Part shown: one piece after another, positions 17,805 through 35,494 of the stretch
How positions within the stretch are numbered: the stretch's first letter is position 1
How the letters are laid out: every line of letters starts with the position of its first letter
Source: Burkholderia sp. USMB20
GTDB taxonomy: Bacteria; Pseudomonadota; Gammaproteobacteria; Burkholderiales; Burkholderiaceae
Assembly (NCBI RefSeq): GCF_000949135.2
Contig: NZ_JTAN02000019.1
Coordinates: 620,001 to 684,000 of the forward strand
DNA length: 64,000 nt
Reading direction: 5' to 3'
Notes under the pieces: model-generated
Databases searched by the model: none
Told to the model about the DNA's origin: nothing
Seen by the model: the letters and a program-made list of their open reading frames with translations, nothing else
Translations under genes and position numbers: made by a program

Positions 17805-18025
17805 GAGCGATCGCCGGAATAGATGGCCCATGCCGATTCGATCAATGCCCCAGGGACATCGCCGACCTCGAATCCCGGTACGTCTTCGAGCAGAGTCCGC
17901 AGATGGTTCATGAACTCGGCGCGCGAGAAATTGCCGCCGAACGCATCTTGAATAGACTCCACCAACCCCTGAATCTGGTCGGTGGTCAGCGGCGGGAAAT
18001 CGTCGTGGTGTTTGATGTCGTCCAT
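17801..18025 (-). CDS. Small acidic protein A, paralogue of the gene at 19351-19581
   Basis: A 74-residue acidic protein. It aligns end to end with the 76-residue product at 19351-19581: both begin MDDI..xDDFPPLT, share LLED(V/I)PGFE and end IESAWAIY. A GGAG lies 9-12 bases before the ATG. It is transcribed away from the HNH nuclease gene, and its stop overlaps the start of the truncated gene downstream. No family is recognised. The acidic character, small size and place beside a nuclease would fit an antitoxin, immunity or inhibitor role, but that is only inference. Confidence 0.68.
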   Translation of the reverse strand: MDDIKHHDDFPPLTTDQIQGLVESIQDAFGGNFSRAEFMNHLRTLLEDVPGFEVGDVPGALIESAWAIYSGDRS

Positions 18026-18079
18026 GCCGCCACCATCTCCTGATATTCGGCGAACGACAACGCAAAGGGAGGGAAACTA

Positions 18080-19345: not shown

Positions 19346-19350
19346 AAGGT

Positions 19351-19581
19351 TCAGAATTCGCGCCAACTGCTGGTGTATATCGCCCACGCGGATTCGATGC
19401 GCCTCGCATTCACCTGGTCCGTCTCGAATCCTGGGATATCTTCGAGGAGCATCAACAGATTTTCGGTGAAATCTGCTCGAGAAAGATCGCTGTCGAAATC
19501 TTCACGAACTGCCATAGCCAGTTCGCGAATCTGCTCGATGGTCAGCGGTGGGAAATCGTCGGGACGTTGAATGTCGTCCAT
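19351..19581 (-). CDS. Small acidic protein B, paralogue of the gene at 17801-18025
   Basis: A 76-residue acidic protein (MDDIQRPDDFPPLTIEQIRE, then LLMLLEDIPGFETD and IESAWAIYTS). It is convergent with the HNH gene, whose stop is only 5 bases away. The ATG at 19581 is chosen by alignment with paralogue A; an upstream in-frame codon would add nine residues without a counterpart. Unknown family. The conserved motifs DDFPPLT, SRA(E/D)F and ESAWAIY give a distinctive profile for searching. Confidence 0.68.
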   Translation of the reverse strand: MDDIQRPDDFPPLTIEQIRELAMAVREDFDSDLSRADFTENLLMLLEDIPGFETDQVNARRIESAWAIYTSSWREF

Positions 19582-19737
19582 ACGACGACTATCCCGGCAC
19601 CTCCACAATCAGCACAACGGCGGGCAGCTTTCAACTACGGGCAGTTCGCGAAAATGTCAGAACAGGCGGCCGCACGATCTCCAATCTGTTTATCATGAAC
19701 GTGTAGTCCCATTCGAGCATGTCGACATGCGAACGCG

Positions 19738-20973
19738 ATGAAGACCAGTCCCTCACTCAACCCACCGTTGCGGATCCTGCATAGAAAGCTTAAAGAGCCG
19801 AAATCGATCGCGGAGGTACGTCAATACTTCGCCGGAATGACACCTGCGGATGTGCTATGCCAAGCATACCTAAAGGTGCTTGCCCGTGCTCACAATATGT
19901 CCGGGGCATCCTTTATCCAGCACACCACGGGACTATCGAGATCGCAGCTGCGGCTAGGGGTGCAGCGTCAGTCCACCCTCGATCGCGCGATGCAACGTCG
20001 CATCGCAAATATGCGATCGCAGCTCCGCCGCAAGCAATGGAAATCCGAGGAAATTGCGGAGTTCGAAGCCGGGTTCCCCAGCCTTCGCTCAGACTTTCCG
20101 ACCGCCTACGCCGATTTTACTTATGCTGTCTTTTACGGATTTGGCGGCGGCGAAGAAGCCATCTCTCATGCCATCGAGATCGACAGACTGATCTGGAATC
20201 TGGAACATGCGTATCGCAACGATATGCCGCCTGTCCAAATTGGGCGGATATTACGTGATTGTTCCGTCTTCGACGCTGAGCACTTTGACCGTGCGGAAGG
20301 CCAACTCGTGGCAGATTATTCTGAGCGACAAGCGCTTGCGGAACTCGCCCAGACCTCATCGTGGGAGGAGGCAACACCCCTCATCGCTCTGATCGGCGTA
20401 CATTGCTTAATCTCCCTGCTAGCGATCTTTGATATCTGCATGCAGAGATACCTCGGCCCTGTCTGGTCAGATTCCATCGATGGCTCGGTGGTAACCAGAT
20501 TGTTTCCGCGCCTGTCCCCTCGTGCCGCCGTCGAGACGGGCCGACCAAGCCGGCGCGGTTTGGTCGAATTGCCAGTAGCGCTGCTGCTGGACTTCAGTGT
20601 TCGCCTGATCTACCGCTGGCGTAATGGCCAGTGGCCGCGCAAACGACCGTCCTGGAAGGAGGTGGCGTGCTGGACCACTTCCGTGTCCGCTGGCCTTTTG
20701 GCACAGTGGAGATCTGGACAGAAGGCAATGACCGCTGCAGACTTCGCGCGATTTTGGTTGGAGGCATGCTGCACGCCAAAACGCCAGCAGCATCCCCCTC
20801 CGATACCCATGCCGCTGTATTTCGCGGCCATCATGCTTGAGACGTGCTGTGTCACTTGGAAGAAGCGAGGACAGCACCGCAGCGTCCTGCTCCTCGACCC
20901 AGACGACTACCTGGCCCACCGCCAACGCTTGATGGAAGCCTCGACGGTGGGTGCATCGGGTCAGAGTGCCTAA
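19738..20973 (+). CDS. Hypothetical protein, 411 residues, mostly helical
   Basis: Not recognised. The first 150 residues are basic and helical (SRSQLRLGVQRQSTLDRAMQ); one moderately hydrophobic stretch lies near 225-245 (PLIALIGVHCLISLLAIFDI). It has several Trp/Cys residues in the C-terminal half and a Lys/Arg-rich loop (WRNGQWPRKRPSWKE). No catalytic motif is visible. It stands in the accessory segment between the HNH cluster and a 40-residue gene on the other strand and has lower G+C than core genes, so it is probably horizontally acquired. Confidence 0.6.
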   Translation: MKTSPSLNPPLRILHRKLKEPKSIAEVRQYFAGMTPADVLCQAYLKVLARAHNMSGASFIQHTTGLSRSQLRLGVQRQSTLDRAMQRRIANMRSQLRRKQWKSEEIAEFEAGFPSLRSDFPTAYADFTYAVFYGFGGGEEAISHAIEIDRLIWNLEHAYRNDMPPVQIGRILRDCSVFDAEHFDRAEGQLVADYSERQALAELAQTSSWEEATPLIALIGVHCLISLLAIFDICMQRYLGPVWSDSIDGSVVTRLFPRLSPRAAVETGRPSRRGLVELPVALLLDFSVRLIYRWRNGQWPRKRPSWKEVACWTTSVSAGLLAQWRSGQKAMTAADFARFWLEACCTPKRQQHPPPIPMPLYFAAIMLETCCVTWKKRGQHRSVLLLDPDDYLAHRQRLMEASTVGASGQSA

Positions 20974-20978
20974 CTTTT

Positions 20979-21101
20979 TTACTCATCAGCCAAGCGTTCT
21001 TCCCAGTCGTCCGGCCGCTCGTCCTCGCCACGAGACTGCCAATAGGCGTCGTTGTTCGGGTTCAGTTGATCGGCGTGGTTGTCGAGATCGTGCTTTTCCA
21101 T
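20979..21101 (-). CDS. Very small acidic protein (40 residues) with a strong ribosome binding site
   Basis: ATG at 21101, stop TAA at 20981-20979. The product starts MEKHDLDNHADQLNPNNDAY and continues with WQSRGEDERPDDWEERLADE, so it is strongly acidic and lacks membrane segments. GAGGAGG lies about 8 bases upstream of the ATG. The NPNNDAYWQSRG pattern is familiar to me from short conserved proteins on plasmids and integrative elements, but I cannot name a function. It is convergent with the 411-residue gene, 5 bases apart. Confidence 0.65.
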   Translation of the reverse strand: MEKHDLDNHADQLNPNNDAYWQSRGEDERPDDWEERLADE

Positions 21102-21493
21102 GCTGGATTCCTCCTCGGTTCACCTGCCACATGGCAGTGAGCCGATGGTGCCGCTCAACGCTGACGAAATAATCCCGAATCTTGACGATTTGGATCCGGA
21201 GCCTGCTTCACGTCCAAGGAGTTGGTTTCCCGTGAACATCTCGCCGGTGTACTGCCCCACCGATCACCGCGATTTCAGCCCGACGCCCGTGAACGTGATT
21301 CCCACTCGGCAAAACCAGCCATTTCGCATCGTGATACATCCGCCAACCACGTGTTGATCACATCCGAGCAAGGGGACTGGGAAACGAAATCGCCGTGGTG
21401 TTGAGTATCGCTCATGCACCGACTCTCTCGGCAGTTCCGCAGTCGGCACAGCAAAGAGCCCAACTAAAGACTTGATCGTCTAAACGACGTTGA
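21102..21493. other. Region without a convincing gene; possible relic of a third acidic paralogue
   Basis: On the minus strand an ATG at 21414 opens MSDTQHHGDFVSQ, which resembles the first residues of the two small acidic proteins (MDDIKHHDDFPPL), but the similarity fades after about 12 codons and the frame ends after 46. The DNA in front of it also resembles the DNA in front of paralogue B (a Cys-Ala-Asp-Cys-Gly coding stretch). A plus-strand frame at 21079-21357 has no ribosome binding site and no family features. Confidence 0.35.
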
Positions 21494-22177
21494 TTACCGT
21501 TCGGAACGTAGCCACTCATCACCCCGTTGCAACAAAGCAATCATCGATTCGTGCACCAGCCTATCGCGACTCTTTAATTGATCAGCGTATTGAACAAGTA
21601 TGGCGTGCTTCCGGCGAATGCGTGCGTCCCGGTCTTGACCATGATAAGACACATCAAAATTCATCAAGTCCGTTACAAGATGATTGTTTAACTGAAAAGA
21701 GTAGATCAGCCCCTTGGCCTTAGCGTAGGTCACGATAATCAAGCGTCTGAGTTCTTCATCCGCGATCTTACCAACCTGCGAGGACGCTCGGTTATACACC
21801 GTGAATGCTTCCGTGGTGACCGGAAATATTGCGTCGAAGAATCCGCCCTCCGGTACAGCCAGTAGCTGCTGGCGAGCGCCTACGTTGTAGCCTTCCCAAA
21901 TTGCATTAATCTCTTCTCTGATCGCCTGCACGAAAGCCAGCGTCTCCGCCAACTCTTTCCGGGCGTCGTCGGCCGCATGCCGCACCTCGGCCTCTCGGGT
22001 ATCTCGATATTGCTTGTTAGCAACCCAGATTGCGATGAGGATCGCGCCGATTGACCCCGCGGCCTGCACCCAAGCAGCCGCACTTGCAGCATCCGTGGCT
22101 GGATAGTGACAATACACACTCGCACCGGCTACGGCAGCGAGCGTTAGCAGCGCAATTAGCCATTTGTGGTGTTTCAT
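21494..22177 (-). CDS. Hypothetical membrane protein with two N-terminal helices
   Basis: A 227-residue protein. Hydrophobic segments lie at about 6-25 (LIALLTLAAVAGASVYCHY) and 35-52 (VQAAGSIGAILIAIWVANK). A charged helical cytoplasmic part follows (RDTREAEVRHAADDARKELA onward). GGGG lies a few bases before the ATG. This layout, a short membrane anchor plus a helical soluble domain, is frequent among uncharacterised proteins of phage and defence islands. No enzymatic motif is seen. It ends beside the possible acidic-paralogue relic. Confidence 0.65.
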   Translation of the reverse strand: MKHHKWLIALLTLAAVAGASVYCHYPATDAASAAAWVQAAGSIGAILIAIWVANKQYRDTREAEVRHAADDARKELAETLAFVQAIREEINAIWEGYNVGARQQLLAVPEGGFFDAIFPVTTEAFTVYNRASSQVGKIADEELRRLIIVTYAKAKGLIYSFQLNNHLVTDLMNFDVSYHGQDRDARIRRKHAILVQYADQLKSRDRLVHESMIALLQRGDEWLRSER

Positions 22178-22392
22178 CGCATTCCCCGTTTTTTTCCGGC
22201 GATCCTACCACTGGAGGAGCATTGGAGTAGGGCTGCGCTTGCTGAGGCGCAAATGGCGAGGGCGGAAACCAGTCCGAGCAGCCGGCCCTGGTCATCGTTG
22301 CATCTTGCAGCGAATGCAAATACCCGCCAGCGACGCCACCGCTTCGCCGCCGAGCCATGCCAGTTTCGATACCAGCGACCAGAATCACCCGC

Positions 22393-22422
22393 TTGCCATC
22401 CCCACCCAAACCCCTGTAGAAT
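22393..22422 (+). promoter_or_regulatory. Promoter of tRNA-Gly(CCC)
   Basis: TTGCCA (22393-22398) and TAGAAT (22417-22422) are 18 bases apart and end 10 bases before the mature tRNA 5' end. Confidence 0.65.
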
Positions 22423-22432
22423 TACGCGTTCT

Positions 22433-22507
22433 GCGGGCGTCGTATAATGGCCATTACCTCAGCTTCCCAAGCTGATGACGTGGGTTCGATTCCCATCGCC
22501 CGCTCCA
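22433..22507 (+). tRNA. tRNA-Gly (anticodon CCC)
   Basis: Acceptor arm GCGGGCG pairs with CGCCCGC, followed by the T discriminator and encoded CCA. The anticodon stem TCAGC/GCTGA closes the loop TTCCCAA, giving anticodon CCC. The T arm reads GTGGGTTCGATTCCCAT. It is the integration site of the element to its right: the last 24 bases plus three more are repeated at 30599-30625. The tRNA itself is complete, because the element's attP restores the 3' end. Confidence 0.96.
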
Positions 22508-22510
22508 CCT
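22484..22510 (+). repeat. attL of the integrative element (27-bp direct repeat, copy 1)
   Basis: Bases 22484-22510, starting GTTCGATTCCCATCGCCC and ending CCACCT, are identical to 30599-30625. The copy lies in the T arm and acceptor 3' strand of tRNA-Gly(CCC), the classical target of tyrosine integrases. Confidence 0.92.
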
Positions 22511-22593
22511 CGAACCTAACCGGTTGATTTTGTTCCGGTTACGGTCCTGACAGCACGAATACTCCGCGAGACTACTACAGTTGGTGGTCCGTC

Positions 22594-24552
22594 ATGCAGG
22601 GTATCTCCTGCCTGTATCGCCGTCCAAGCGGCATCTACGCAGTGCGTCTTGTCGTCCCCAAGCGGTTGCGCGAGTTCGTCGGCAGGACGGAAATACACAC
22701 GTCTACCGGCGTCCGAAGTCTGGCGGTTGCGAAGACTGAGGCGCTTAGAATCCAGCTTCACTGGCGCACACATTTTCAGGCGATGGACGCGGAAAAACTC
22801 AGGAACGAAAGCCCGCTGATTGCTGGCGACGGCATGATTTCAATAACGGCGGCGGCGGACGCTATCGGCATCTCACCCGGCGCACTCGCTGGCGAACTGC
22901 TCAATGACCGGGCGCAGGTCTATACGCACGTTCAAGGTCTACGCGGTTGGGCGGTTCCTGACTTGAACGACATCGAGCGCGACTATGACGGCGGCCTCGT
23001 CCTGAATGACGTTGAGAGCAAAGGCGTCGAGACGACCCATTCCGGTATGGTGCGGTTCCTCGATACGCGCGCCACGCTTGGCCGGTTCGTCGTCGGTGCG
23101 AAGTCCATCGAGTCCGTTTTGCGGCACGGTGCGCACGCCGCCGTCATTCTGGATGACGAGCTGGAAGTGTCGCTGTCCGAGTGCGTCACGACCAAGACCG
23201 CCATTGCGAAGGTGCGTGCCCGCCTTGCCTTGTCCGTGCCGCCAGCAAGCCCTGTCGTGCCGACTGCCACGACGACGCCGCCGACGCCGTCAGCAAGCCC
23301 TGTCGTGACGCCGAGCATAGCGACGCCCATCATCCACGATCCGATCACCGCGCGGCACGGCTCCAAGCGCTTCTCGGAGCTGTTCGAGCTGTATCGGAAA
23401 GACCGGGACTGGAGCGTTGGCACGGCGAAACGCAACACGACCGAGGCCGAGCTGTTCGCGGGCCTGATGGGTGATCCAGCGCTAGGCGACATCGAGAAAG
23501 AGACCGTGCTGGAATTCGCGCGGCTGCTCGCCCTACTGCCGAGAGACATCTACCAGTCACGGCGCAACTATCGCCGCACGACCGGCGAGACCAAGACCCT
23601 CCACGAGCTGATAGAGCTTGCCAAGCGCGACGGGCTGAAACGCAAGAACGAGGATACCGTGAAGCGCCACGTCGGGCACCTGAGCGAGATTCTTGGCTAC
23701 GGCGTCAAGGCGGGCATGATGCGCTTCAATCCGGCGGCAGACTACAAGCGTGGGCGCAGTGCGGGTGCAGGTTCGCGTCCGCAGGACGACCGGCAGACGT
23801 TTGCGCCTGACGAGCTGGACCGCATCTTTTCACAGGACTGGTTCGAGCGTGGTGCGGGAACCGTCAGGGCGAACGGCTTCACGCACTGGCGACCGCACTA
23901 CTACTGGTTGCCGCTGCTGGGCCTGTTGACCGGTGCGCGTATCAATGAGCTGTCGCAGCTCTACCTAGACGACATACGGCAGTCTGAAGCCGGGGTGTGG
24001 TATCTGGATTTCAACCTCGACGGCGACAAGGTAGAGGACGTGCCCGACAAGTCGCTGAAGACGGTCAACGCCGAACGAGTCGTGCCGATACATGCAGAGC
24101 TGGTGCGTCTCGGCTTGCCTGAGTATGTCGAGAGGCTAAGGCGGGCGGGCCATACCCGCCTGTTTCCAGAGCTGAAGCGTGACCCCGTGAAGGGCTACGG
24201 CAAACCGGCTGGATCGTGGTTCAACGAGCGCTTTCTCGGCAACAGGCTCGGCATCGAGCGGAACGGGATGAAGACTTTCCACTCGTTCCGGCATACGTTC
24301 ATTACAGCGCTTGAACGGCTTGAGCTGCCTGAACGCGTGATGACGCAATTGGCCGGGCATGAGCGCGGCAAGACGCAGAGCGGGAAACGCTATGCGAAAG
24401 ACCGCGACGCCGACGAGCTGGCAGAAATTTTTGCCCGGTTGCACTTCCCGGCACTCACTGGCGTAGCGCCGCTCAGGATTGACGATGCTCTGGCCGCCAT
24501 CAAGTGCGCAGCGCGTCAGAAGGTGGCGGCAGGCCGACGCGAACGGCGTTGA
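22594..24552 (+). CDS. Tyrosine-type site-specific integrase
   Basis: A 652-residue phage-type integrase, longer than typical (about 400). The catalytic set is visible: Arg449 in LTGARINELSQL, His563/Arg566 in HSFRHTF, the HxRG-type LAGHERG, and the nucleophile Tyr600 in GKRYAK. The N-terminal 230 residues include a DUF6538-like start (GISCLYRRPSGIYAVRLVVP) and an Ala/Pro/Thr linker near residues 215-245 (ASPVVPTATTTPPTPSASPV). It would catalyse integration into and excision from tRNA-Gly(CCC). It begins 84 bases after attL. Confidence 0.95.
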   Translation: MQGISCLYRRPSGIYAVRLVVPKRLREFVGRTEIHTSTGVRSLAVAKTEALRIQLHWRTHFQAMDAEKLRNESPLIAGDGMISITAAADAIGISPGALAGELLNDRAQVYTHVQGLRGWAVPDLNDIERDYDGGLVLNDVESKGVETTHSGMVRFLDTRATLGRFVVGAKSIESVLRHGAHAAVILDDELEVSLSECVTTKTAIAKVRARLALSVPPASPVVPTATTTPPTPSASPVVTPSIATPIIHDPITARHGSKRFSELFELYRKDRDWSVGTAKRNTTEAELFAGLMGDPALGDIEKETVLEFARLLALLPRDIYQSRRNYRRTTGETKTLHELIELAKRDGLKRKNEDTVKRHVGHLSEILGYGVKAGMMRFNPAADYKRGRSAGAGSRPQDDRQTFAPDELDRIFSQDWFERGAGTVRANGFTHWRPHYYWLPLLGLLTGARINELSQLYLDDIRQSEAGVWYLDFNLDGDKVEDVPDKSLKTVNAERVVPIHAELVRLGLPEYVERLRRAGHTRLFPELKRDPVKGYGKPAGSWFNERFLGNRLGIERNGMKTFHSFRHTFITALERLELPERVMTQLAGHERGKTQSGKRYAKDRDADELAEIFARLHFPALTGVAPLRIDDALAAIKCAARQKVAAGRRERR

Positions 24553-24597
24553 AGATCTAGCACTCGCCGCAATCGCGGCACAAATCGGGGAAACAAA

Positions 24598-24900
24598 ATG
24601 AATATCAAAAGAATCGCCGTGCTGTCCCTTGCTTCATTGACGCTGACCGCCTGTATGACTATCGGACATAAGTTCGATCCGAGCGCGGTGGACTCGATGC
24701 GTCCGGGCGTGACCACGATTCAGGATGCAGAAACCGCGCTCGGCAAACCCGCATCGTCGTCAGCGGTAGTGAATGGCGGCACTTTGCTGCAATGGATTTA
24801 TACGCAAGGCTCAGTGGTCGGTGGCTCGTCGGCGCACGTTGCCGTGCTTTTCGACAAGAATGGCAGGATGGTGCGGGTCACGCACCGGAGCCAGATGTAA
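24598..24900 (+). CDS. Small lipoprotein, SmpA/OmlA (BamE-like) fold
   Basis: A 100-residue protein with a lipoprotein signal peptide; the lipobox LTAC places the modified cysteine at residue 19. The mature part has the pattern VDSMRPGVTTIQDAETALGKP, followed by a strand-rich region (LLQWIYTQGS, VAVLFDKNGRMVRV), typical of the SmpA/OmlA fold. On mobile elements such lipoproteins could alter the cell surface or block superinfection, but there is no direct evidence here. It starts 45 bases after the integrase stop. Confidence 0.8.
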   Translation: MNIKRIAVLSLASLTLTACMTIGHKFDPSAVDSMRPGVTTIQDAETALGKPASSSAVVNGGTLLQWIYTQGSVVGGSSAHVAVLFDKNGRMVRVTHRSQM

Positions 24901-25202
24901 CCGCGCATAGAGCCGCAGGCTTATCGGGAGCGTCCGGGTCCGGGTGCTCCCTCCCGGCGCTCCCTATAAGGTTTCGTCAAAAACCGCTGCCCGTTGAAAC
25001 ACGGTATCCCCTCAAGGTCGGCTCCATCCTCTAAGACTTGCTTACCGTTTCCCGCACGCCATTTTTTGTTGCGTGGTGGCAGTGCTGCGTTTCATTCTCT
25101 CGGGGCTGGGTGCTCGCATATCAACTCTTTAACCCCCTCCGTGCATTCACCATCGCCCTGATAGACTGCGGTCCAAGCGGGGACGAGAACGAGGAGAAGA
25201 AA
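24901..25202. other. Intergenic region inside the element
   Basis: No gene is supported. A GC-rich stretch (GGGAGCGTCCGGGTCCGGGTGCTCCC, about 24927-24952) can fold into a hairpin and may end the integrase-lipoprotein transcript. The rest probably holds the promoter of the next gene. Confidence 0.35.
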
Positions 25203-25919
25203 ATGTGGGGGCTTGAAGCGAAAGATTGGGTAATGGTCGGAGCCACGATCGCCGGGCCGATCTTAGCCGTGCAGGCACAGAAGTGGGTGGAACGAGCGCG
25301 CGAAGCAACAAACCGACGAGCACTCGTCTTCACGACCCTAATGGCAACGCGCCAATCACGCATTTCGATGGAGCACGTTCGGGCACTCAACTCTATTGAT
25401 CTCGCCTTTTATGGTCGTCGCGTGCTTGGTGTCACCGTGCGTCGCAAAGTGCATCAGGCGGTGCTGGACGCGTGGCATGACTATTATGAGCACCTGTGCG
25501 TGCCAGAGGAGCGACGGCCGAAGAACGACGCCGAGTTTCGTGATTGGAATGGTCGCGGAGACGAGCTGTTCACAAATTTGCTGGAACGACTCGCGACAGC
25601 GACCAACTTCAAGTTCGACCGCAAACAGCTCAAGGCTGGCAGTTATTCTCCCGAAGCGCATGGTGCAGTGGAGCTAGAGCAACAGGCTGTGCGAAGGCTA
25701 GCACTCAGCGTGTTGTCGGGTGAAAAGACGTTGCCGATGGAAGTCAGGGCTTGGCCCGTTGACGCCGCCGCTGCACAGCAGCAGCGCGATGCGCAGACGG
25801 AGCTGGTCCAAAACCAGAGGGAAATGATGGCCGACTTCAAGCAGATTTTGGAAAGGCTCACCGAGCACGCTGTTGGTGCTCACGAGGAAGCGGTATTGCA
25901 GGGTGAACCACGCCGCTGA
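25203..25919 (+). CDS. Hypothetical protein with one N-terminal membrane helix (DUF6680-like)
   Basis: A 238-residue protein. The ATG at 25203 has GAGGAGA about 7 bases upstream and is preferred to an upstream TTG that would add 55 poorly coding residues. It starts MWGLEAKDWVMVGATIAGPI (one hydrophobic segment), then a helical part with RALVFTTLMATRQSRIS and HVRALNSIDLAFYG, a pattern I associate with DUF6680, without certainty. The C-terminus is Gln/Glu-rich and probably coiled-coil. No function is known. It is a candidate cargo gene of the element. Confidence 0.65.
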   Translation: MWGLEAKDWVMVGATIAGPILAVQAQKWVERAREATNRRALVFTTLMATRQSRISMEHVRALNSIDLAFYGRRVLGVTVRRKVHQAVLDAWHDYYEHLCVPEERRPKNDAEFRDWNGRGDELFTNLLERLATATNFKFDRKQLKAGSYSPEAHGAVELEQQAVRRLALSVLSGEKTLPMEVRAWPVDAAAAQQQRDAQTELVQNQREMMADFKQILERLTEHAVGAHEEAVLQGEPRR

Positions 25920-26044
25920 TATGGCTACGGTATGAAAGAGGTATATGTCTACAGTTATTAGGCCGGTTACGCGATTTTCACGCCCGGCAAGGGTTTCACC
26001 CGCGTTGACCGGTCCCGTTTGTCCCGATTTTTTGCGAAAGCCGA

Positions 26045-26953
26045 TCAGACCTTTAGACGCCGCAGTGCACCCTTGATTGCGTCTTGAAGCTCGTTGTCAG
26101 CTTGCAGGTGACTGCTCTCGCGTCGTAGTTTCTGCCACCTATCGCGCCGCCCCAATGATCGGAAGCTGTGCAGGCCACGTTCGGGCGTTGCGTCGTTCAA
26201 GCGCCTGTTTATCGTGATCGCGGCAAGCTTGAACCGGTCGCCTTTGGCTTGCGCTTCAGGGGTAATGGGCGTGCGGAACCGGAAGAAGCGCACAAGGTCC
26301 GTGAACTTGTATCCGTCGAGGTCAGCCAGCTTCACTAAGCCGGTGCTCCTGAGTGTATTGCCCTTCAATGTAACTTCGACGCGTGCGCGCCACTCGTTCG
26401 GCGGTAACGGTTGCTTATTGTTGTCGGTGCGCTTCCAGTAGCACTGCCACGACACGTCATCGTCCTTGTTGCCTTCACGGTAGTTTAGGAGCGGGTCTAG
26501 TCGCCTTCCTGGAACATCCATGAAGCGGTTGACCCAGACTTGAGGATCAAACTGGCGGGGGCGGCTTCCGTCGGTAAGTAGGCTCGACTGAAGGCGGTAG
26601 GTCATGGCGCGGGTCGCGACCTCTCGCTCTGCCTCTTCGGTGTGCAAGAAGTCGCACGCGACCTCAATCGCTACGATTTCCGGTTCGTGAGTGAGTGGAT
26701 ACCGCTCGGCGAACTCCGCGAGTGCCTTGCTCAGTGCCGCATAGTGGTTCGCCAGCCGGTCGGTAACGCGCACAACGAACGTATCCGCGACGCCACCGGG
26801 GCCATCGTCGATAGCGCGGACGTGGAGCTTCCCGGCACCCGCTGCATCGAGCGCAGATTGGACGTGCTGGAACTGGGTTGGACGTGCGGTGCGAAGCCTC
26901 ACGTCCAGCCAGTCCACACAAGCCTTTCGCCGGAAGTTCTGAAGCGCGGCCAT
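26045..26953 (-). CDS. Possible replication initiation protein of the element
   Basis: About 302 residues from the ATG at 26953, which follows the stop of the upstream gene by 4 bases. The layout (ACVDWLDVRL early, PEIVAIEVACDF near the middle, then EWRARVEVTLKGNTLRSTG and FTDLVRFFRFRTP) resembles rolling-circle-type Rep proteins of filamentous phages and small elements, which have R-x-E-x-x-L...L and FRF patterns. I cannot point to the catalytic tyrosine with confidence. The C-terminal 60 residues are basic. Alternative: an unrelated DNA-binding protein. It is the last gene of a three-gene minus-strand block. Confidence 0.6.
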   Translation of the reverse strand: MAALQNFRRKACVDWLDVRLRTARPTQFQHVQSALDAAGAGKLHVRAIDDGPGGVADTFVVRVTDRLANHYAALSKALAEFAERYPLTHEPEIVAIEVACDFLHTEEAEREVATRAMTYRLQSSLLTDGSRPRQFDPQVWVNRFMDVPGRRLDPLLNYREGNKDDDVSWQCYWKRTDNNKQPLPPNEWRARVEVTLKGNTLRSTGLVKLADLDGYKFTDLVRFFRFRTPITPEAQAKGDRFKLAAITINRRLNDATPERGLHSFRSLGRRDRWQKLRRESSHLQADNELQDAIKGALRRLKV

Positions 26954-26957
26954 GATG

Positions 26958-27305
26958 CTAGGTCCGCGCAGCCAGAGCCGGAGCTTTCGGGATTTTTTGA
27001 TACCGCCAATGGATGGCATCGTCAAATTCCACAACGAACCCTTTCGGCGCTTGCTTCACGACCGCAAGCTTTGTCGATGCGTGGACGTTCCTGATAAACG
27101 CCTTGATCGCACTGAGGGCATACGCTGGACGCCACGCACGCCCGTCGTAATGTTTTGCAGCGGGCGTAAGCACATGGCCGCACACATCGGTTTTCCCCGA
27201 CCGCATGTCTGCGAGCGCATCATCCCATGACCGCATTGCGCCGAGGAACTGGCGCAGAATCAAGGCGGTTTCGCCCGCCGGATAGATGGTTTCCTTGACC
27301 TTCAT
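26958..27305 (-). CDS. Hypothetical protein, 115 residues
   Basis: Start ATG at 27305 with GGGGGAAAGC directly before it, which decides against the in-frame codon 39 bases upstream. The product (MKVKETIYPAGETALILRQF, then RSWDDALADMRSGKTDVCGH) is basic with no membrane segment. Not recognised. It sits between the possible DNA-binding gene (11 bases away) and the possible Rep gene, so it likely takes part in replication or maintenance of the element. That is inference from position. Confidence 0.65.
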   Translation of the reverse strand: MKVKETIYPAGETALILRQFLGAMRSWDDALADMRSGKTDVCGHVLTPAAKHYDGRAWRPAYALSAIKAFIRNVHASTKLAVVKQAPKGFVVEFDDAIHWRYQKIPKAPALAART

Positions 27306-27315
27306 GCTTTCCCCC

Positions 27316-27822
27316 TTATGCCGTAGCTCGTTTGCAGGCGTCAACGGCTGCCGACAGTTCTTCCAAGACGGCCACTGCTTCCGCCACTTCGATCCGGTAG
27401 ACCATCAGAGGGTCATCGGTGATTAGCTGGACATATGGCTTCCCGGCCTCGTCCACCTGCGGGTGGATACCGGACACCTTCAGCTTCCTGCCGGTCGTGC
27501 TGCCACCCTTCTCGCCGATGCCATACGCGCGCATGACTTCAGCCGCGCGCCCCGTGAGCGTGACGCTGCCGAGTTGCCGTTGCTTCTCGAACTCGACAAA
27601 CCGGGCAAGTTCGACCACGTCATAGTGAGCGGCCTTGAAGCCCACTACCGATTGGAACGGAATGCGATACGGCACGCGCCTCGTTTGGCTGCGATTGTTG
27701 GTCAGCCAGCGTTGCCAATATCCAACCGACTCCCCCGGCAGAGCCTCATTCAGCCATTCGGCTGCCGCCTTGCTGCTCAAAAGTTCCACGTCCTGCTCCT
27801 TCTCAATTTTCGATGGAGTCAT
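27316..27822 (-). CDS. Possible DNA-binding protein (regulator or excisionase-like)
   Basis: About 168 residues from the ATG at 27822; a GTG at 27834 is an alternative, and neither has a strong ribosome binding site. The N-terminal part LLSSKAAAEWLNEALPGESVGYWQRWLTNN looks like a winged-helix or Xis/AlpA-type region with residues like SVGYWQRWL, followed by FVEFEKQRQLGSV. It is the first gene of the minus-strand block and is divergent from the serine recombinase, 114 bases apart, where an inverted repeat lies. No firm family assignment. Confidence 0.6.
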   Translation of the reverse strand: MTPSKIEKEQDVELLSSKAAAEWLNEALPGESVGYWQRWLTNNRSQTRRVPYRIPFQSVVGFKAAHYDVVELARFVEFEKQRQLGSVTLTGRAAEVMRAYGIGEKGGSTTGRKLKVSGIHPQVDEAGKPYVQLITDDPLMVYRIEVAEAVAVLEELSAAVDACKRATA

Positions 27823-27878
27823 TCTACATACCACTCAAAAACTATTCAATATTTGATTTATATAAGTTCTCTTTCGGT

Positions 27879-27921
27879 TATACTGGCCTCACATTAAACG
27901 CTCGTCTTGTCGTGAGGCCAG
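27879..27921 (+). promoter_or_regulatory. Promoter -10 overlapped by a perfect 10-bp inverted repeat, before the serine recombinase
   Basis: CTGGCCTCAC (27883-27892) and GTGAGGCCAG (27912-27921) are perfect inverted arms with a 19-base spacer. A good -10 hexamer TATACT (27879-27884) touches the left arm. The repeat sits between two divergent genes of the element, so it is a likely operator. The resolvase itself or the divergent gene product could bind it. Confidence 0.55.
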
Positions 27922-27936
27922 CATCGAGAGGAACAA

Positions 27937-28638
27937 ATGGCACAAGGTCAGTTCGTCGCTTACTACCGGGTAAGCACTGCGCGTCAAGGCATGTCCGGTC
28001 TGGGTCTCGACGCACAGCGCGAGGCGGTCGCCCGCTACCTGAACGGTGGCGATTGGGAACTGGTAGGCGAGTTCACCGAGACAGAGACCGGCAAGGGTGC
28101 GAATGCTCTGGAGAAGCGTCCGCAGCTTCGTGCCGCGCTGGAGTTGTGCAAGCGGCGCGGGGCGACGCTCATCATTGCAAAGCTCGACCGGCTCGCCCGC
28201 AACGTGCACTTCGTGTCTGGCTTGCTGGAAACCGGATGCGATTTCGTAGCCGCCGACATGCCGCAAGCGAACAAGGTCATGATCCAAATGCACGCCGTAA
28301 TGGCCGAGTGGGAACGCGATCAGATCAGCAAGCGAACAAAGGACGCTCTGGCGGCAGCAAAGGCGCGTGGCGTGAAGCTCGGGACGGCAGGAGCCGCGAA
28401 CCTCAAACCGAACGTGGAGGCCCGCCAGCGCGCCGCCGACGCGTTCGCGGGCAAACTGGCAGGCATGGTGGCAGGGTTCCGGGCGCGGAACCTCTCTCAG
28501 CGTGGCATGGTGGCCGAGCTGAACGCTCTCGGCATCAGAACGGCGAACGGCGGTCAATGGCACCGAGGCCAGCTCTGCCGACTCTTAGAACGGATTGATG
28601 CTGTGCACTGCTCGGAGACCCTGACTCCGACCGCATAA
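27937..28638 (+). CDS. Serine recombinase (resolvase/invertase family)
   Basis: A 233-residue protein. The catalytic serine is Ser13 in YYRVSTARQGMSGLGLDAQR. The resolvase domain continues with EFTETETGKG, LIIAKLDRLARN and EWERDQISKRTKDALAAAK, and a basic C-terminal region with a helix-turn-helix-like RNLSQRGMVAELNALGIRT. GAGAGG lies 6-8 bases before the ATG. In an element that already has a tyrosine integrase it may resolve dimers, invert a segment or be a relic of another mobile unit. Its site may be the inverted repeat upstream. Confidence 0.88.
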   Translation: MAQGQFVAYYRVSTARQGMSGLGLDAQREAVARYLNGGDWELVGEFTETETGKGANALEKRPQLRAALELCKRRGATLIIAKLDRLARNVHFVSGLLETGCDFVAADMPQANKVMIQMHAVMAEWERDQISKRTKDALAAAKARGVKLGTAGAANLKPNVEARQRAADAFAGKLAGMVAGFRARNLSQRGMVAELNALGIRTANGGQWHRGQLCRLLERIDAVHCSETLTPTA

Positions 28639-28724
28639 TCGACATGCTCTAAGCATCACTTCCGCGGCCGGCAAACCGCGGCACCATTACCGCGGTCCTA
28701 CCAATGCCGCCGCCCACTATTGGG

Positions 28725-30302
28725 TTATGCATCGATATTGCACAGCTGCCGGGCTTTCTGTGCGAGCGCGACAGCCCTTAGCTTTACGAAAGCCTCGTAA
28801 TTGTCATCGAACAGGGCATTTGGACAGTAGTGAGATTCAAGAATCGCCCCCAATTGTTCGGCCGGCATTTTCTGCTTATAAACGCTCGGCGCATCTCCAC
28901 CGACCGCCCGATTATCTGCACGCGATATAAAGCAGAAGTTCGCCAACACATTCTCGTTGATCGCGGTCTGTCCGCTCGCAGCCAAGAAAGCCTTTGGCAT
29001 AAGATGATGAAATTCCTTTCTATTGTATCTTTGCAATTTTTTACTCAAATCAACCGAAATTCCACTTACAAAATTCCGCGGCTGGTTTTGCGCAAGAATT
29101 GCCACAAAAGTCTTTGTATTAACAGAACTAACAAGAAAGCGATTTTTCACAAAATATGCATCCTGAACCTCAACCGGGAACATCCCCAGTTGCGACTCGC
29201 CGCCCGCCTTCAGCTTTCGCATTTCCTCGATGTCCGCATCAAGATGTCGGAGCACACCAGCACTGTATCGCTCCGCGAAAGCAGACCGCCAGAACCACTG
29301 ACTTATCTGTCGCCTTTGCACGTCATTACATGCGACCTCAGCGTTGTCTGGAGCCGCAAAAAAGACAGATAACGGTATCAAACAATTCTGATACGGAAGA
29401 TTGTCGATCGATGGCAAATGATATTCCGACGCTATAAAATCAAGGGCACCTTTTATACCATTGACTACCTCTCGGAAGCGCTCCCGGACAACCGCCCCGT
29501 TCAATTGGACAAGGCTCTCAGGGCGCGATGACCCAGAAAGGATTGCAGCGGTGCAACGAAGTAACAAGCTTATGTCATTGGACAACTCGGTAAATCCGTA
29601 ATCGCTGAGTTCGTCGATGAGTTCGTCAAACTCGCTTTGCAGGCGGAAGTCTTCACTCCAGGTCCAAGCCGAGAGAAGTTGAAGCGTGTCGAGCGGCACA
29701 CCTTGACGATTGATGCGCTCAAAGATGATCGCAACCTTTTCTTTCTCTTCCGTCCGAAAGCTTTGAACCGGGATTCTCGCCTCCTTAAACACTGACTGCA
29801 TAGCGTCGATCTGCGCCGCCACCTCATCGCTCATACCGCGGGTCAATTTTCGATACTCGGCTGTATCGTAAATCGCACGCAGCGGGAAATGCTTCGTCGG
29901 ATCGACTTCGTCCGCGCCAAGTGCGAAAAACTGAGATTCTTGCACGTCATGCGCCTGCGTGAAGTCGAAATATACATCCTTCCAAGTTTCGGAATCTTTC
30001 TGCAACTCCGTCTGAAAGACGCCAAAAATTGAAGTTACGCGTTGCTGCCCGTCAAGCACATAGTCGATTGGAAAATCGGCTCTTGGCTCAGGCAAATCAA
30101 ACGGACCAAGCCGGTTTTCCGTGCGCAGCCGTTCGCTCGTCCGCCAAAAGAGCAATGCACCGAACGGATATTTCTTGTAAATGCTATCGATTAAAAAAGC
30201 CACTCGATCCGGCTCCCAGACGAACCCGCGTTGAAACGCCGGGATTCTGATTTGGCCTCGATAAACCGAGTCGAGTATTTCTCTTATCGTGAAGGATTCC
30301 AT
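28725..30302 (-). CDS. DUF262 protein with C-terminal HNH region (GmrSD-type, type IV restriction-like)
   Basis: About 525 residues from the ATG at 30302. The N-terminal DUF262 (ParB-like NTPase) domain has PAFQRGFVWEPDR, IDSIYKKYPFGALLFW and DGQQR (84-88), then IIFERINRQGVPLD. The C-terminus shows a DUF1524-like HNH pattern: EFHHLMPKAF (about 430-439) and ENVLANFCFISRADNRAVGG. Single-chain GmrSD proteins of this kind cut glucosylated or otherwise modified phage DNA; that substrate is known for the family, not shown here. The gene is clearly AT-richer than the rest of the element, so it may have been a separate acquisition. It ends the element near attR. Confidence 0.85.
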   Translation of the reverse strand: MESFTIREILDSVYRGQIRIPAFQRGFVWEPDRVAFLIDSIYKKYPFGALLFWRTSERLRTENRLGPFDLPEPRADFPIDYVLDGQQRVTSIFGVFQTELQKDSETWKDVYFDFTQAHDVQESQFFALGADEVDPTKHFPLRAIYDTAEYRKLTRGMSDEVAAQIDAMQSVFKEARIPVQSFRTEEKEKVAIIFERINRQGVPLDTLQLLSAWTWSEDFRLQSEFDELIDELSDYGFTELSNDISLLLRCTAAILSGSSRPESLVQLNGAVVRERFREVVNGIKGALDFIASEYHLPSIDNLPYQNCLIPLSVFFAAPDNAEVACNDVQRRQISQWFWRSAFAERYSAGVLRHLDADIEEMRKLKAGGESQLGMFPVEVQDAYFVKNRFLVSSVNTKTFVAILAQNQPRNFVSGISVDLSKKLQRYNRKEFHHLMPKAFLAASGQTAINENVLANFCFISRADNRAVGGDAPSVYKQKMPAEQLGAILESHYCPNALFDDNYEAFVKLRAVALAQKARQLCNIDA

Positions 30303-30598
30303 TCTCTCGCTACCCCTATGCTGATTTTTTGATGACACCGGTTCCGACAACGCTTGCTGTTACCGCGCTTTGCTTCCAGCAGATGATACTGAACCACCGT
30401 TGACGAATGATAACAATGCGACTCGTGCCCTGAAAACGTTGCATCCCGACGATGCCTTTCTGGGAGGAAAGCAAGGACGGACCGCCACCGCGCTCCCGCC
30501 GCTCTGCTACAATGCGCTCTAACAAAGTCTGAGTGGGGCAAAGACGCCCTCTCTTTTACGTTTTCAAATCAATGGCTTGCGGATAGATTCTTGCGAGC
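30303..30598. other. Right end of the element before attR
   Basis: No gene is supported. This stretch contains the promoter region of the DUF262/HNH gene and short frames without ribosome binding sites. It is AT-rich in parts (CTCTTTTACGTTTTCAAATC, about 30550-30569). Confidence 0.4.
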
Positions 30599-30625
30599 GT
30601 TCGATTCCCATCGCCCGCTCCACCT
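30599..30625 (+). repeat. attR of the integrative element (27-bp direct repeat, copy 2)
   Basis: Identical to 22484-22510. It looks like the 3' end of a tRNA but has no acceptor 5' strand, D arm or anticodon arm upstream, so it is an attachment-site copy and not a tRNA gene. Confidence 0.92.
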
Positions 30626-30650
30626 TCGGCTGCTCGGCAGCCTGCGCAAG

Positions 30651-30677
30651 AGCCGCCTCGTCGAAGGCGGCTTTTTT
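30651..30677 (+). terminator. Original terminator of tRNA-Gly(CCC), displaced by the element
   Basis: AGCCGCCT (30651-30658), loop CGTCGA, AGGCGGCT (30665-30672), then a run of T. It lies 26 bases after attR, where the tRNA terminator would be in the empty chromosome. It is now more than 8 kb from the tRNA. Confidence 0.8.
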
Positions 30678-30764
30678 GTACCATCTGCCTGTCCATCCGG
30701 CAGCACCGCTGCGCGTAGCGGGCGTAACGGGCCCGCGCCCGAACCAAGCCTTTCTCTGTCACCG

Positions 30765-31532
30765 ATGATGCACGACGATCCGAACGAAGCCGGCCTGCCG
30801 CCGGACGACGCCGCCCTTCCCGACGAAGCCGCCGACAGCGCCGACGAAGTCAATCCGCTGCACCGACGCCGCATCCGCAGCTTCGTGACGCGCGCCGGCC
30901 GCGTGTCGACCGGCCAGCGCCGCGCGCTCGACGATCTGGGCCCGCGCTTCGTCGTGCCGTACGCCGCTGAAATCCCCGACTGGGACGCCGTGTTCGGCCG
31001 CCGCGCGCCGCGCATCCTGGAAATCGGCTTCGGGATGGGCGCGTCGACCGCGGAAATCGCCGCGCATCGCCCGGGCGACGACTTCCTCGGCGTCGAGGTG
31101 CACGAGCCGGGCGTCGGCGCGCTGCTGAAGCTGATCGGCGAGCAGGACCTGCCGAACATCCGCATCATCCAGCACGACGCGGTCGAAGTGCTCGAGCACA
31201 TGCTCGCGCCGGAAAGCCTCGACGGCGTGCACATCTTCTTCCCGGATCCGTGGCACAAGGCGCGTCACCACAAGCGCCGGCTGATCCAGCCGCCGCTCGT
31301 CGCGCACCTCGCATCGCGCCTGAAGCCGGGTGCGTACCTGCATTGCGCGACCGACTGGCAGAACTACGCGGAACAGATGCTGGAAGTGCTCGGCGCCGAA
31401 CCGACGCTCGAAAACACGGCCGCCGACTACGCGCCGCGCCCCGACTACCGCCCCGTCACGAAGTTCGAACGGCGCGGGCTGCGGCTCGGCCACGGCGTGT
31501 GGGACCTGGTGTTCCGCAAGCGCGCCGGCTGA
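30765..31532 (+). CDS. trmB: tRNA (guanine-N7-)-methyltransferase TrmB
   Basis: A 255-residue SAM-dependent enzyme that methylates G46 of tRNAs. Family marks: [17 protein letters not shown], the SAM loop [27 protein letters not shown], and [19 protein letters not shown]. It ends with [22 protein letters not shown] codons at 30765 and 30768 are adjacent; the first is given. The acidic N-terminal 30 residues are extra to enteric TrmB but usual in Burkholderia. In the empty chromosome it would directly follow the tRNA-Gly gene. Confidence 0.95.
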
Positions 31533-31572
31533 CCACGGCTCGCGGCAGCACGACGCACGCTGCGCGCCGCGC

Positions 31573-31623
31573 AATGACAAACGGCCCGACCGGCATCTGC
31601 TGCCGATCGGGCCGTTTGTCATT
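31573..31623. terminator. Long bidirectional terminator between trmB and uppP
   Basis: A perfect 17-bp stem (31573-31589 with 31607-31623, arms starting AATGACAAACGGCCCGA). It serves the convergent genes trmB and uppP. Confidence 0.85.
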
Positions 31624-31650
31624 GGAAGCGCCCTCGCCCCCGCACCGGCA

Positions 31651-32481
31651 TCACGCCCAGTTCAGCCACCCGCTGTAGCCCACCAGCAGCACGAACAGGC
31701 CGAACGCGATCCGGTACCACGCGAACACGGTGAAGTCGTGCGTCGCGACGAAGCGCAGCAGCCAGCGCACGCACACGAACGCGCTGACGAACGCGGCAAC
31801 CAGCCCGAGCGCGAACAGGCCGAGCGAGTCGACCGTGAATGCCTGCCAGTCCTTGACGGTTTCATAGAGCGTCGCGCCGAAGATGATCGGAATCGCGAGG
31901 AAGAACGAGAATTCGGTCGCGACGCGCCGATCGAGGCCGAACAGCATCCCGCCGATGATCGTCGAGCCCGAGCGCGACATGCCCGGCACCAGCGCGAAGC
32001 ATTGCGCGAGGCCGACCTTCAGTGCATCGAGCGGCGTGAGCGCATCGACCGACTGCACGCGCGGCGGCTCGCTGCGTTCGCGCTGCCGCGCCTCGGCCCA
32101 CAGGATGATCGCGCCGCCGACGACGAGCGCGAATGCGACCGGCACCGGCGAGAACAGCACGGCCTTGATCTTCTTCTCGAACAGCAGGCCGAGCGCGATC
32201 GCGGGAATGGTCGCGATCACGACGTTCAGCGTGAAGCGCTGCGCGTCGGGCCGGCTCGGCAGCCCGGACACGATGGACACGATCCGCTGCCGGTATTCCC
32301 AGCAGACCGCGAGAATCGCGCCGAACTGGATCACGACGTCGAAGGTCTTCGCGTGCGCATCGTTGAAATTCAGGAAGCTGCCCGCGACGATCAGGTGGCC
32401 GGTGCTCGACACCGGGAGGAATTCCGTCAGCCCCTCGACGACGCCGAGGATCAATGCCTTGCAGATCAGGATCCAGTCCAT
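31651..32481 (-). CDS. uppP: Undecaprenyl-diphosphatase UppP (BacA)
   Basis: A 276-residue polytopic membrane enzyme that removes a phosphate from undecaprenyl diphosphate, recycling the carrier for peptidoglycan and polysaccharide synthesis. The catalytic motifs are [19 protein letters not shown] near the N-terminus and [17 protein letters not shown] in the middle. About eight hydrophobic segments. The length is standard. It has the same lipid carrier as the polysaccharide genes later in the window. Confidence 0.96.
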
Positions 32482-32559
32482 CCGTGGCCCAACTCCGAAG
32501 TAGTCGAAAGAAAGGGCCGCGTCACCGCCGCGGCCCGCCCGGCCGCGCGCGGTGCGCCG

Positions 32560-33141
32560 TCACTTTTCGACGATCGCCACGCGTATGCCGTTTGTAAGAA
32601 TCGTAATTGTACCGGGTTCGTAGTTCACGCCGGCAAATTGCAGTTGCTCGGGCTTGAACGTATAGATCGGATAGTTGGTCAGCACCTGCGTCGCGAGCAG
32701 GCCGGCGGCCGCGCCGACCTGTTGCGCGTACATCTGCGCGTTGCCGTCGAGCACGAGGCTGTCGACGGCCGGCGCCTTCAGCACGACCGAGCGGCTCGGC
32801 GCGTCGTAGGCCAGCTGGCCCGACACGGTGAACTTGCCGCTCACCGGTTCGCTCAGGAACGGACTCGCGAAATGCGCATCGAGCTGCACGGCGACGCGGT
32901 TCTGGTCGGGCAGCAGGTTGACGGCCGGATTCGCCAGCGACACGTCGACGACCTGCGCGACCGTCTTCTGGTACGGAAACTTGCGCGCGACGGCCTTCTG
33001 CACGTCGCCGCGCGAGAACGTGTAGTGATCGGGAATGAACGGGAACGTCGACGCACAGGCGGCGAGCGATACCGACACGCCGATGGCGCCGGCGCAAGCG
33101 GCGAGGAAGCGGCGCCGGCCGGGCGTGCAAGATGCGGTCAT
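32560..33141 (-). CDS. DUF1439 lipoprotein
   Basis: A 193-residue protein. The signal sequence has a twin-arginine-like start (PGRRRFLAACAGAIG) and a lipobox LAAC with Cys29. The mature part matches DUF1439: HYTFSRGDVQKAVARKFPYQ, VSLANPAVNLLPDQNRVAVQL and SGQLAYDAPSRSVVLKAP in parts. Such proteins (YceB-like) are predicted outer-membrane lipoproteins without known function. The ATG at 33141 gives a complete signal peptide; a much longer upstream reading has no ribosome binding site. Confidence 0.85.
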   Translation of the reverse strand: MTASCTPGRRRFLAACAGAIGVSVSLAACASTFPFIPDHYTFSRGDVQKAVARKFPYQKTVAQVVDVSLANPAVNLLPDQNRVAVQLDAHFASPFLSEPVSGKFTVSGQLAYDAPSRSVVLKAPAVDSLVLDGNAQMYAQQVGAAAGLLATQVLTNYPIYTFKPEQLQFAGVNYEPGTITILTNGIRVAIVEK

Positions 33142-33290
33142 GCTGGACAATCTCCTGTATCGGGCGAAGCGGCAGTCCGGTAATCGGCTCCGCCCCATGT
33201 GGCGCTGGGGACCGAAGTTAGTGCTTCGACGCGCGTCGCCGGTTCCATGCGCGCGCCGGCAAACGACAGCGCGACAGCGCGGGCAGCGCG

Positions 33291-33614
33291 TCAGCGGGCC
33301 GCGCCGGGCGACGGCTGCGTCGCGATCTCGAGGCGCGTCAGCCACGCGAGCGCGTCGTCGCGCGACGCACCGCACATCTCGGCGGACGGCTGCAGCCCGG
33401 AACAGCACGCGGGCCGCTCGGGCCGGCCGAAGATCCGGCAGCGCAGGTCGTCGCCGAGCTGCACGCAGCGCACGCCGGCCGGCTTGCCGTCGGGCATCCC
33501 CGGAATCGGCGAGGAAATCGACGGCGCGATGCAGCATGCGCCGCACCCCTCGCGGCACGCATGCGGCGGCGGGACCTCGGCGGGCGCCGGACGGACAGGC
33601 ATTTCGACGGACAC
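33291..33614 (-). CDS. YkgJ-family cysteine cluster protein
   Basis: A 107-residue protein with a putative metal-binding cysteine pattern: CREGCGACC near the N-terminus, then GVRCVQL, RCRIF and ACC. GTG at 33614 is used, with GAGAG upstream; an ATG at 33602 would shorten it by four residues. The family (CxxCxxCC zinc/iron-cluster proteins) has no assigned function. It is divergent from the hemN-type gene. Confidence 0.85.
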
Positions 33615-33772
33615 TCGACTCTCTCACGAACAACAAAAAACGGTGCGGCAACCGGACGCAGCGTGCGGCAGCCCACCGCGCATTGTGCCACCGCCGGCTG
33701 CGACGTTATTACACAATGCAGCCGAAACGCGCGTTCATATACTCCAAAGCATCCAAAAAGCGCGAGACCATC

Positions 33773-35164: not shown

Positions 35165-35236
35165 CACCGAACGGCCGCATGCGGGCGGCCGGTTTGATAA
35201 AGTAAGGGGCTCCACGCCCCTGCAAGAACCCGCACG

Positions 35237-35494
35237 ATGCGCACCACCAAAGCAACCCACGCGGTCGAACGCCTGAAGACCCGTTCCGGCAACCCGCAGT
35301 TCGCCGCCGTCGCGATGGCGGGCGGCCTGTTCTACCTGGTCGACCGCTCCGGCGGCACCGCCGAGAAACGCAGCGAGCCGCTGCCGCTCGACGAATTCGT
35401 CAGGTTCGTCGACGAATTCGGCCCCAAAAAGCCGCGCAAGGCGAGCAAGCTCGACCTCGCGTTCGAGGCGCAGATCAAGAAGAGCAAGGCGTAA
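35237..35494 (+). CDS. Conserved hypothetical small basic protein
   Basis: An 85-residue protein: MRTTKATHAVERLKTRSGNP, then AMAGGLFYLVDRSGGTAEKR and a Lys-rich tail (FGPKKPRKASKLDLAF). No domain is recognised. It has its own start 72 bases after hemN and is followed by the methyltransferase gene. I recall such a short gene as conserved in Burkholderia, but that is memory only. Confidence 0.7.
   Translation: MRTTKATHAVERLKTRSGNPQFAAVAMAGGLFYLVDRSGGTAEKRSEPLPLDEFVRFVDEFGPKKPRKASKLDLAFEAQIKKSKA

Follow-up and report, generated by a model that had tools for sequence, protein, structure and literature searches.

How do small bacterial islands that carry an integrase and defence genes, and no known transfer genes, move between bacteria? 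Passages of Hochhauser et al. (2023, PMC10121019) describe the "integrase-only" mobile defence islands of Escherichia coli in these terms, as integrases together with defence genes, and state their mobilisation to be unclear. The same question is raised by an 8.1-kb block in Burkholderia sp. USMB20, found in a 64,000-nucleotide stretch of contig NZ_JTAN02000019.1 (the whole of which is referred to as the window). This block is a precisely bounded integrative element in tRNA-Gly(CCC). It has relatives in Burkholderia, Paraburkholderia, and Enterobacteriaceae, and together they form a family of small integrative elements, often with defence genes, that has received little notice. One of its proteins (referred to as the Rep-like protein), which sequence comparison places as a remote relative of the Rep_trans family of rolling-circle initiators and relaxases, may help explain the movement of such islands.

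The element is delimited by the following features of the site:

22433..22507, plus strand: tRNA-Gly(CCC), the integration target, whole at the left attachment site, attL (ARAGORN; Rfam RF00005)
22484..22510, plus strand: core of attL, a 27-bp direct repeat of which 24 bp come from the tRNA; the same core stands at attL in two close copies (L031 and L032, see below)
30599..30625, plus strand: core of the right attachment site (attR), 27-bp direct repeat
30650..30677, plus strand: hairpin resembling a terminator of the host, here separated from the tRNA, and present in empty sites too (seen in the sequence)

The 27-bp repeat (GTTCGATTCCCATCGCCCGCTCCACCT) was perfect in both copies, 8,115 bp apart from start to start, and one copy lay in the 3' end of the tRNA, as described in the initial annotation of this DNA. 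Seven 27-mers occur twice in the window (same strand, exact); this repeat is one of them, and the remaining six all belong to one other repeat of 32 bp. The latter, also exact, begins GAACGCAGGCCGTGCCGGGG and has two copies in the window. The GC content of the block was 57.6% versus 65.8% for the window, with 62.0% in the left flank (12001-22432) and 68.4% in the right flank (30701-45000). An empty site, in which tRNA-Gly is followed by the terminator and trmB, had been proposed as a check. Of the genomes compared, the nearest had 22% of sampled words in common with the window. The start of trmB was searched in 65 genomes of the nearest genus, taken to be Burkholderia, and matched in all of them; among the 30 best-scoring loci, which were fetched, 21 had a complete tRNA-Gly less than 200 bp before trmB, running into the same sequence as stands to the right of attR in the window (in L040, with 100% identity over the 64 bp matched). 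Other DNA lay between tRNA-Gly and trmB in the other nine, of which L042, L043, and L055 are in genomes with the cousin elements described below. In empty sites, the core ended in ...CGCCCGCTCCAC(C/T)T or something close to it; the tRNA therefore accounts for 24 bp of the repeat, and the last 3 bp are host-variable. These empty sites in relatives therefore showed that the element had been inserted precisely.

Between the cores, eight genes and several non-coding parts were recognised:

22508..22593, plus strand: left end of the element, with the inverted repeat TAACCGG/CCGGTTA
22594..24552, plus strand: tyrosine integrase, 652 amino acids, N-terminal DUF6538 (PF00589, 1.8e-9; PF20172, 2.2e-9)
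24598..24900, plus strand: BamE-like small lipoprotein, 100 amino acids (PF04355, 0.0043, under the cut-off; PHROG 3135, 2.5e-9)
24901..25110, no strand: conserved non-coding stretch, common to three close copies
25203..25919, plus strand: left cargo, DUF6680 protein, 238 amino acids (PF20385, 7.4e-46)
26045..27019, minus strand: Rep-like protein, 324 amino acids, with Tyr194 in the catalytic position and the acidic residues D36, E119, and E215 in the metal positions
26958..27305, minus strand: protein of 115 amino acids without family, in the three close copies only
27316..27822, minus strand: protein of 168 amino acids without family, 93-99% identical in L031 and L032
27823..27936, no strand: divergent control region, with hairpin arms at 27883-27892 and 27912-27921
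27937..28638, plus strand: serine recombinase of the resolvase/invertase type, 233 amino acids (PF00239, 1.7e-29)
28725..30302, minus strand: right cargo, GmrSD-like protein, 525 amino acids, DUF262 domain (PF03235, 2.2e-29; PADLOC PDC-M55C, 7.1e-62)

No capsid, tail, terminase, canonical relaxase, or conjugation/secretion match was found for the eight genes in Pfam, PHROGs, and NCBIfam, nor any complete type IV secretion system or mating-pore genes; three of the eight (the Rep-like, 115-, and 168-amino acid proteins) had no family in these databases. The earlier statements that a tyrosine integrase stands beside attL (Pfam), that a divergent control region is present (27823-27936), and that known transfer genes are lacking were thus confirmed, the last within these databases. 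The serine recombinase was considered as the integrase and rejected: the tyrosine integrase adjoins attL in the copies with located ends, and the repeat is the tRNA end. Tyrosine integrases use tRNA ends as their target.

The gene at 26045..27019 had been annotated as a possible replication protein, and sequence comparison supported this claim. The protein itself had no match in Pfam, PHROGs, or NCBIfam, none of four Rep-like members gave a row with PF02486 at E ≤10 (HMMER filters on), and a profile search of solved structures with the Rep-like family returned chance-level rows only. In a profile-profile comparison (hhalign) with Rep_trans, a probability of 90.5, E value of 1.4e-6, and score of 55.6 over 231 columns were obtained; the maximum for column-shuffled controls was 20.2 (none of 150 reached the score), and that for the reversed control was 11.7. 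With a thin Rep_trans profile, two earlier comparisons had not reached significance, and the significant one used more diverse sets picked after these failures: a Rep-like set without L085 (near-identical to L083 and L084), of which hhalign kept 9 of the 12 sequences, and a Rep_trans set including four inovirus initiators. The catalytic, metal-binding, and arginine positions of Rep_trans (RepDE numbering) were taken from passages of PMC4797284. The catalytic tyrosine (Tyr194) was kept in 9 of the 12 aligned relatives, including 8/8 element-type and enterobacterial plasmid copies, and acidic residues occupied the three metal-ligand positions in all 12 (D36, E119, and E215 in the window, E119 standing where the Rep_trans family has Asp). 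Equivalents of Lys193 and Arg212 were also found in 12/12. These results indicated a remote Rep_trans relationship. In all eight records examined, the protein was annotated "hypothetical protein". It was not found in 369 genomes of the class, a sample without any genome known to match, or as a single query in viral contigs. More distant Rep-like relatives of 406-412 amino acids from the same phylum (L064, L065, and L078) keep R189 and K193, and have Met/Gln at the position of the tyrosine.

Two relatives of the Rep-like protein, one in Burkholderia cenocepacia NCTC13227 (L031) and one in Paraburkholderia sejongensis (L032), were found among 84,980 species genomes by a pattern-based protein search that can detect close relatives only. 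Both loci agreed with the window in six genes and their order (integrase, BamE-like lipoprotein, Rep-like, 115-amino acid, and 168-amino acid proteins, and serine recombinase) and lay at tRNA-Gly(CCC); for L031, this tRNA call was made on the contig that also carries L021. Their attL cores were identical to that of the window, their attR cores differed in the final bases, and they measured 6.3 kb (L031) and 7.2 kb (L032) from core to core, versus 8.1 kb in the window. Their integrases were 83-90% identical to that of the window, versus 54-56% for the cousins and 33-38% for enterobacterial copies. Within the genus sample, a DNA match of some kind was present in 12 of the 65 genomes, a close core in G007 only, and the 168-amino acid gene in one. 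The left end of the element (87 bp) was 98.9% identical between the window and the B. cenocepacia and Paraburkholderia copies. This nearly identical end, in copies from two genera with different cargo, suggests recent movement, and the genes of the window are open-framed between two intact ends; it is therefore very unlikely that the block is an immobile remnant, once inserted by its integrase and otherwise decaying, even if damaged relatives exist (a cousin, L026, with its integrase in two pieces, and an E. coli copy, L067, with a frameshifted regulator).

The Rep-like protein also matched 27 plasmid records of Escherichia, Salmonella, and Shigella, with 42.6% identity in the 20 listed, and three IncHI1B-typed plasmids with the gene (L028, L029, and L030) had no annotated integrase in the stretch read. 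A viral-contig record (L063) had the integrase (37%), Rep-like protein, and serine recombinase together. When its rep was used as the query, 46 of 5,426 E. coli genomes matched (38 over at least 80% of the query), at 33 chromosomal and 13 plasmid places. Four of the five chromosomal copies examined were at a tRNA-Gly beside actS (anticodon CCC by eye), bounded by 18-19-bp repeats spaced 8.0, 8.8, 8.8, and 10.1 kb apart; the fifth was at a tRNA-Leu, with a 19-bp repeat and a spacing of 8.5 kb. All five had the integrase, Rep-like protein, serine recombinase, and XRE regulator (the frameshifted one in L067 included). A conserved gene order at other tRNA-Gly sites was another check that had been proposed; the order of the window was found in the B. 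cenocepacia and P. sejongensis copies, and a like arrangement in the E. coli copies.

These plasmids bear on a first alternative, namely, that the Rep-like protein is primarily a relaxase and that the element is an integrative and mobilisable element (IME), travelling through a conjugation system already present in its host in the manner of the Rep_trans/MobT elements of Firmicutes. According to passages of PMC5704250, Rep_trans/MobT proteins do the work of both relaxase and initiator for Tn916 and for ICEBs1, and are putative relaxases of streptococcal IMEs; the presence of the Rep-like gene on IncHI1B-typed plasmids, with mobI and TraI-domain genes within 3 kb of it in two of the three examined, points the same way. 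On the other hand, the mob genes of these plasmids are on the strand opposite rep, in one case with an IS1 transposase between, and their nearness may be chance; furthermore, no origin of transfer (oriT) was identified, there is no coupling protein, and elements without rep exist. We regard this alternative, which overlaps with the transfer route proposed below, as possible but doubtful. By analogy, one Rep-like protein could be both relaxase and initiator.

Five cousin elements in Burkholderia (L022-L026) shared the integrase (54-56% identity) and lipoprotein (51-53%), and also had an XRE regulator and a different serine recombinase. The BamE-like lipoprotein was found in all eight Burkholderia-type copies examined. 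tRNA-Gly stood beside the integrase in four of the five cousins; a search before the integrase of L023 showed no tRNA, and this element may be rearranged. Three cousins had a pair of genes in the place of rep, divergent from the recombinase, encoding proteins of 118 and 297 amino acids without Pfam match:

L022:11167-12413, L023:3777-5017, and L024:1452-2695: gene pair for the 118- and 297-amino acid proteins

The 118-amino acid protein is ribbon-helix-helix-like by eye, and the pair is possibly another replication or mobilisation module. L025 and L026 had neither this pair nor a Rep-like gene. The serine recombinases of the cousins were 66-71% identical to the enterobacterial one (L063), and the integrases ~31-39%; modules seem to have been exchanged.

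Taken together, the island probably excises, replicates as a rolling-circle plasmid, resolves its multimers, and moves with a helper. The tyrosine integrase, as the structure of the ends indicates, would recombine the core of the element with the 24-27 bp tRNA end, rebuilding the tRNA. The homology of the Rep-like protein predicts that it replicates the excised circle, with Tyr194 nicking one strand and starting rolling-circle synthesis, and the divergently transcribed serine recombinase would resolve multimers. Two slots take exchangeable, mostly predicted antiviral cargo (in the window, the DUF6680 protein and GmrSD-like nuclease). For transfer, the most economical route would be for the Rep-like protein to make single-stranded DNA that then passes through a conjugation system present in the host, because Rep_trans proteins double as relaxases elsewhere. 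Two observations weigh against this life cycle. First, two arginines of the family, Arg140 and Arg189 (RepDE numbering), are absent, with Ala/Gly and Gln/His in their places in 8/8 element-type or enterobacterial plasmid copies, in which T176 and Y178 are also replaced; for this reason we call the protein a divergent relative and not a member of Rep_trans. Second, the Rep-like gene is found in none of the five cousins and is not universal; therefore, either the cousins use another module or rep is unneeded for movement.

Two further explanations dispense with conjugation. In one, single-stranded circles made by the Rep-like protein are packaged by a helper inovirus, the island being a satellite of filamentous phages. 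Four inovirus initiators were part of the Rep_trans set, initiators of the RstA type belonging to the same broad family, and the genomes they come from, of 6.9-7.7 kb, are similar in size to the three close copies (6.3-8.1 kb). In contrast to inoviruses, no Zot-type morphogenesis, coat, or RstB-like gene was found in the element (PHROGs and Pfam), and the Rep-like protein had no tblastn match in 50,697 phage records (E ≤1e-5), versus 79 phage records for a Burkholderia PF02486 protein. This explanation is quite unlikely. The other is a satellite of tailed phages (similar to phage-inducible chromosomal islands or P4), or an island that phages carry over by transduction, generalised or lateral. 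Many phage satellites are small and integrase-bearing, with defence cargo at a tRNA; the element is likewise small, bears an integrase and defence cargo, and has a tRNA site, and L063 adjoins a region that resembles a prophage tail by eye. No packaging, terminase, AlpA, or capsid-redirecting gene was matched (PHROGs and Pfam, three genes having no family and the packaging site not being searched for), and we consider this explanation unlikely.

Returning to the rolling-circle life cycle, a broader and rather tentative proposal, to which we give limited credence, is that defence-carrying integrative elements of one proteobacterial family owe their spread to a divergent Rep_trans protein that is both initiator and relaxase, and so correspond to the MobT elements found in Firmicutes. 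If so, one class of integrase-only defence islands would gain a mechanism of movement, and the initiator module next to the serine recombinase (Rep-like, or the 118- and 297-amino acid pair) would be exchangeable.

SGI1 (Salmonella genomic island 1) is far larger than the element. According to PMC7826253, it resembles the element in that it is an integrated island, encodes an initiator of its own, and depends on a helper; this initiator is Rep_3, not Rep_trans, according to passages of PMC5704250. Compared with the Firmicutes Rep_trans/MobT IMEs as described in the same source, a site-specific integrase, a Rep_trans-related protein, and the lack of an own mating pore are common to both, whereas the present hosts are proteobacteria, the Rep-like protein has diverged beyond the reach of PF02486 and is missing the two arginines, a serine recombinase and defence cargo are added, and mobilisation is predicted from sequence. 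Features that characterise an IME were found in the element: an integrase, direct repeats, an empty site in relatives, and no mating-pore genes of its own. The islands described in passages of PMC10121019 likewise have an integrase or recombinase, defence cargo, a chromosomal hotspot, and no known transfer genes. The present family has a defined core (integrase and serine recombinase, often the Rep-like protein, and in Burkholderia-type copies also the lipoprotein) and occurs in Burkholderiales and Enterobacterales; some of those islands may belong to it. A full-text literature search, whose coverage excluded most subscription journals, found no plain description of the element family and no mention of DUF6538, and passages of PMC2647930 and PMC11389934 contained nothing on the family. 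In two bacterial orders, the family has a defined set of genes and precise ends, and it links defence cargo to a plasmid-like replication module; the predicted nicking activity of the Rep-like protein is open to testing, for which the E. coli copies suit laboratory strains.

Comparison of the copies located two slots with differing cargo, to the left of rep and to the right of the serine recombinase. Predicted defence cargo was found by PADLOC in six of the eight Burkholderia-type copies (the window, L031, L032, and L022-L026); one cargo gene of L023 was scanned without match, and the cargo of L031, a small gene for 154 amino acids and an XRE regulator, was outside the scan. In the window, the DUF262 domain of the GmrSD-like protein scored 103.4 bits with PF03235, above the cut-off of 33.2, and DGQQR in this domain and an HH..P..N motif at the C-terminus were seen by eye. 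The protein thereby resembles GmrSD restriction enzymes, with DUF262 and DGQQR, a single chain, and an HNH-like C-terminal motif; BrxU is a relative of such enzymes. Its best PADLOC model is the candidate family PDC-M55C, and an antiviral role is predicted. L032 carried a protein of 502 amino acids with a weak restriction-endonuclease match (E 0.0081, under the Pfam cut-off) and PADLOC PDC-M36A (1.8e-35). Among the cousins, PADLOC recognised Shedu SduA in L024, PDC-S06 in L022, PDC-S60 with an HNH nuclease in L025, and PDC-M36A in L026, and gave no row for the 731-amino acid gene of L026 or the 257-amino acid gene of L024. PDC-M36A was thus cargo in both lineages, with rep (L032:6833-8341) and without it (L026:598-2067), which suggests cargo exchange between them. 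The DUF6680 gene of the window was not found in L031 or L032 and was present in the cousin L025; relatives of it (63-69%) also occur in two more genomes of the genus (L002 and L008, and L027) without the other genes of the element nearby.

Regarding the non-coding parts, the TAACCGG/CCGGTTA inverted repeat is a candidate arm site of the integrase, and 24901..25110 is a candidate origin or oriT. As RNA, 24901-25202 folded no better than shuffles (z -0.42), and a search for this stretch in the cousins gave nothing beyond weak rows (E 0.017) for L005 and L024; tRNA was the sole match in an Rfam scan. The hairpin of the control region was kept in the three close copies, with arms of 8-10 bp, and both this divergent region and the stretch after the lipoprotein gene may serve regulation or origin function. 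The 168-amino acid protein had no match in the plasmid search, one weak PADLOC row (E1-E2, E 0.00095), and a fold prediction too poor for a structure search (predicted local distance difference test, pLDDT, 45). Finally, ~6 kb lay between attR and trmB in the B. cenocepacia copy (L031:2304-8259); by eye, its genes look metabolic and include those for a transporter and a LysR-type regulator.
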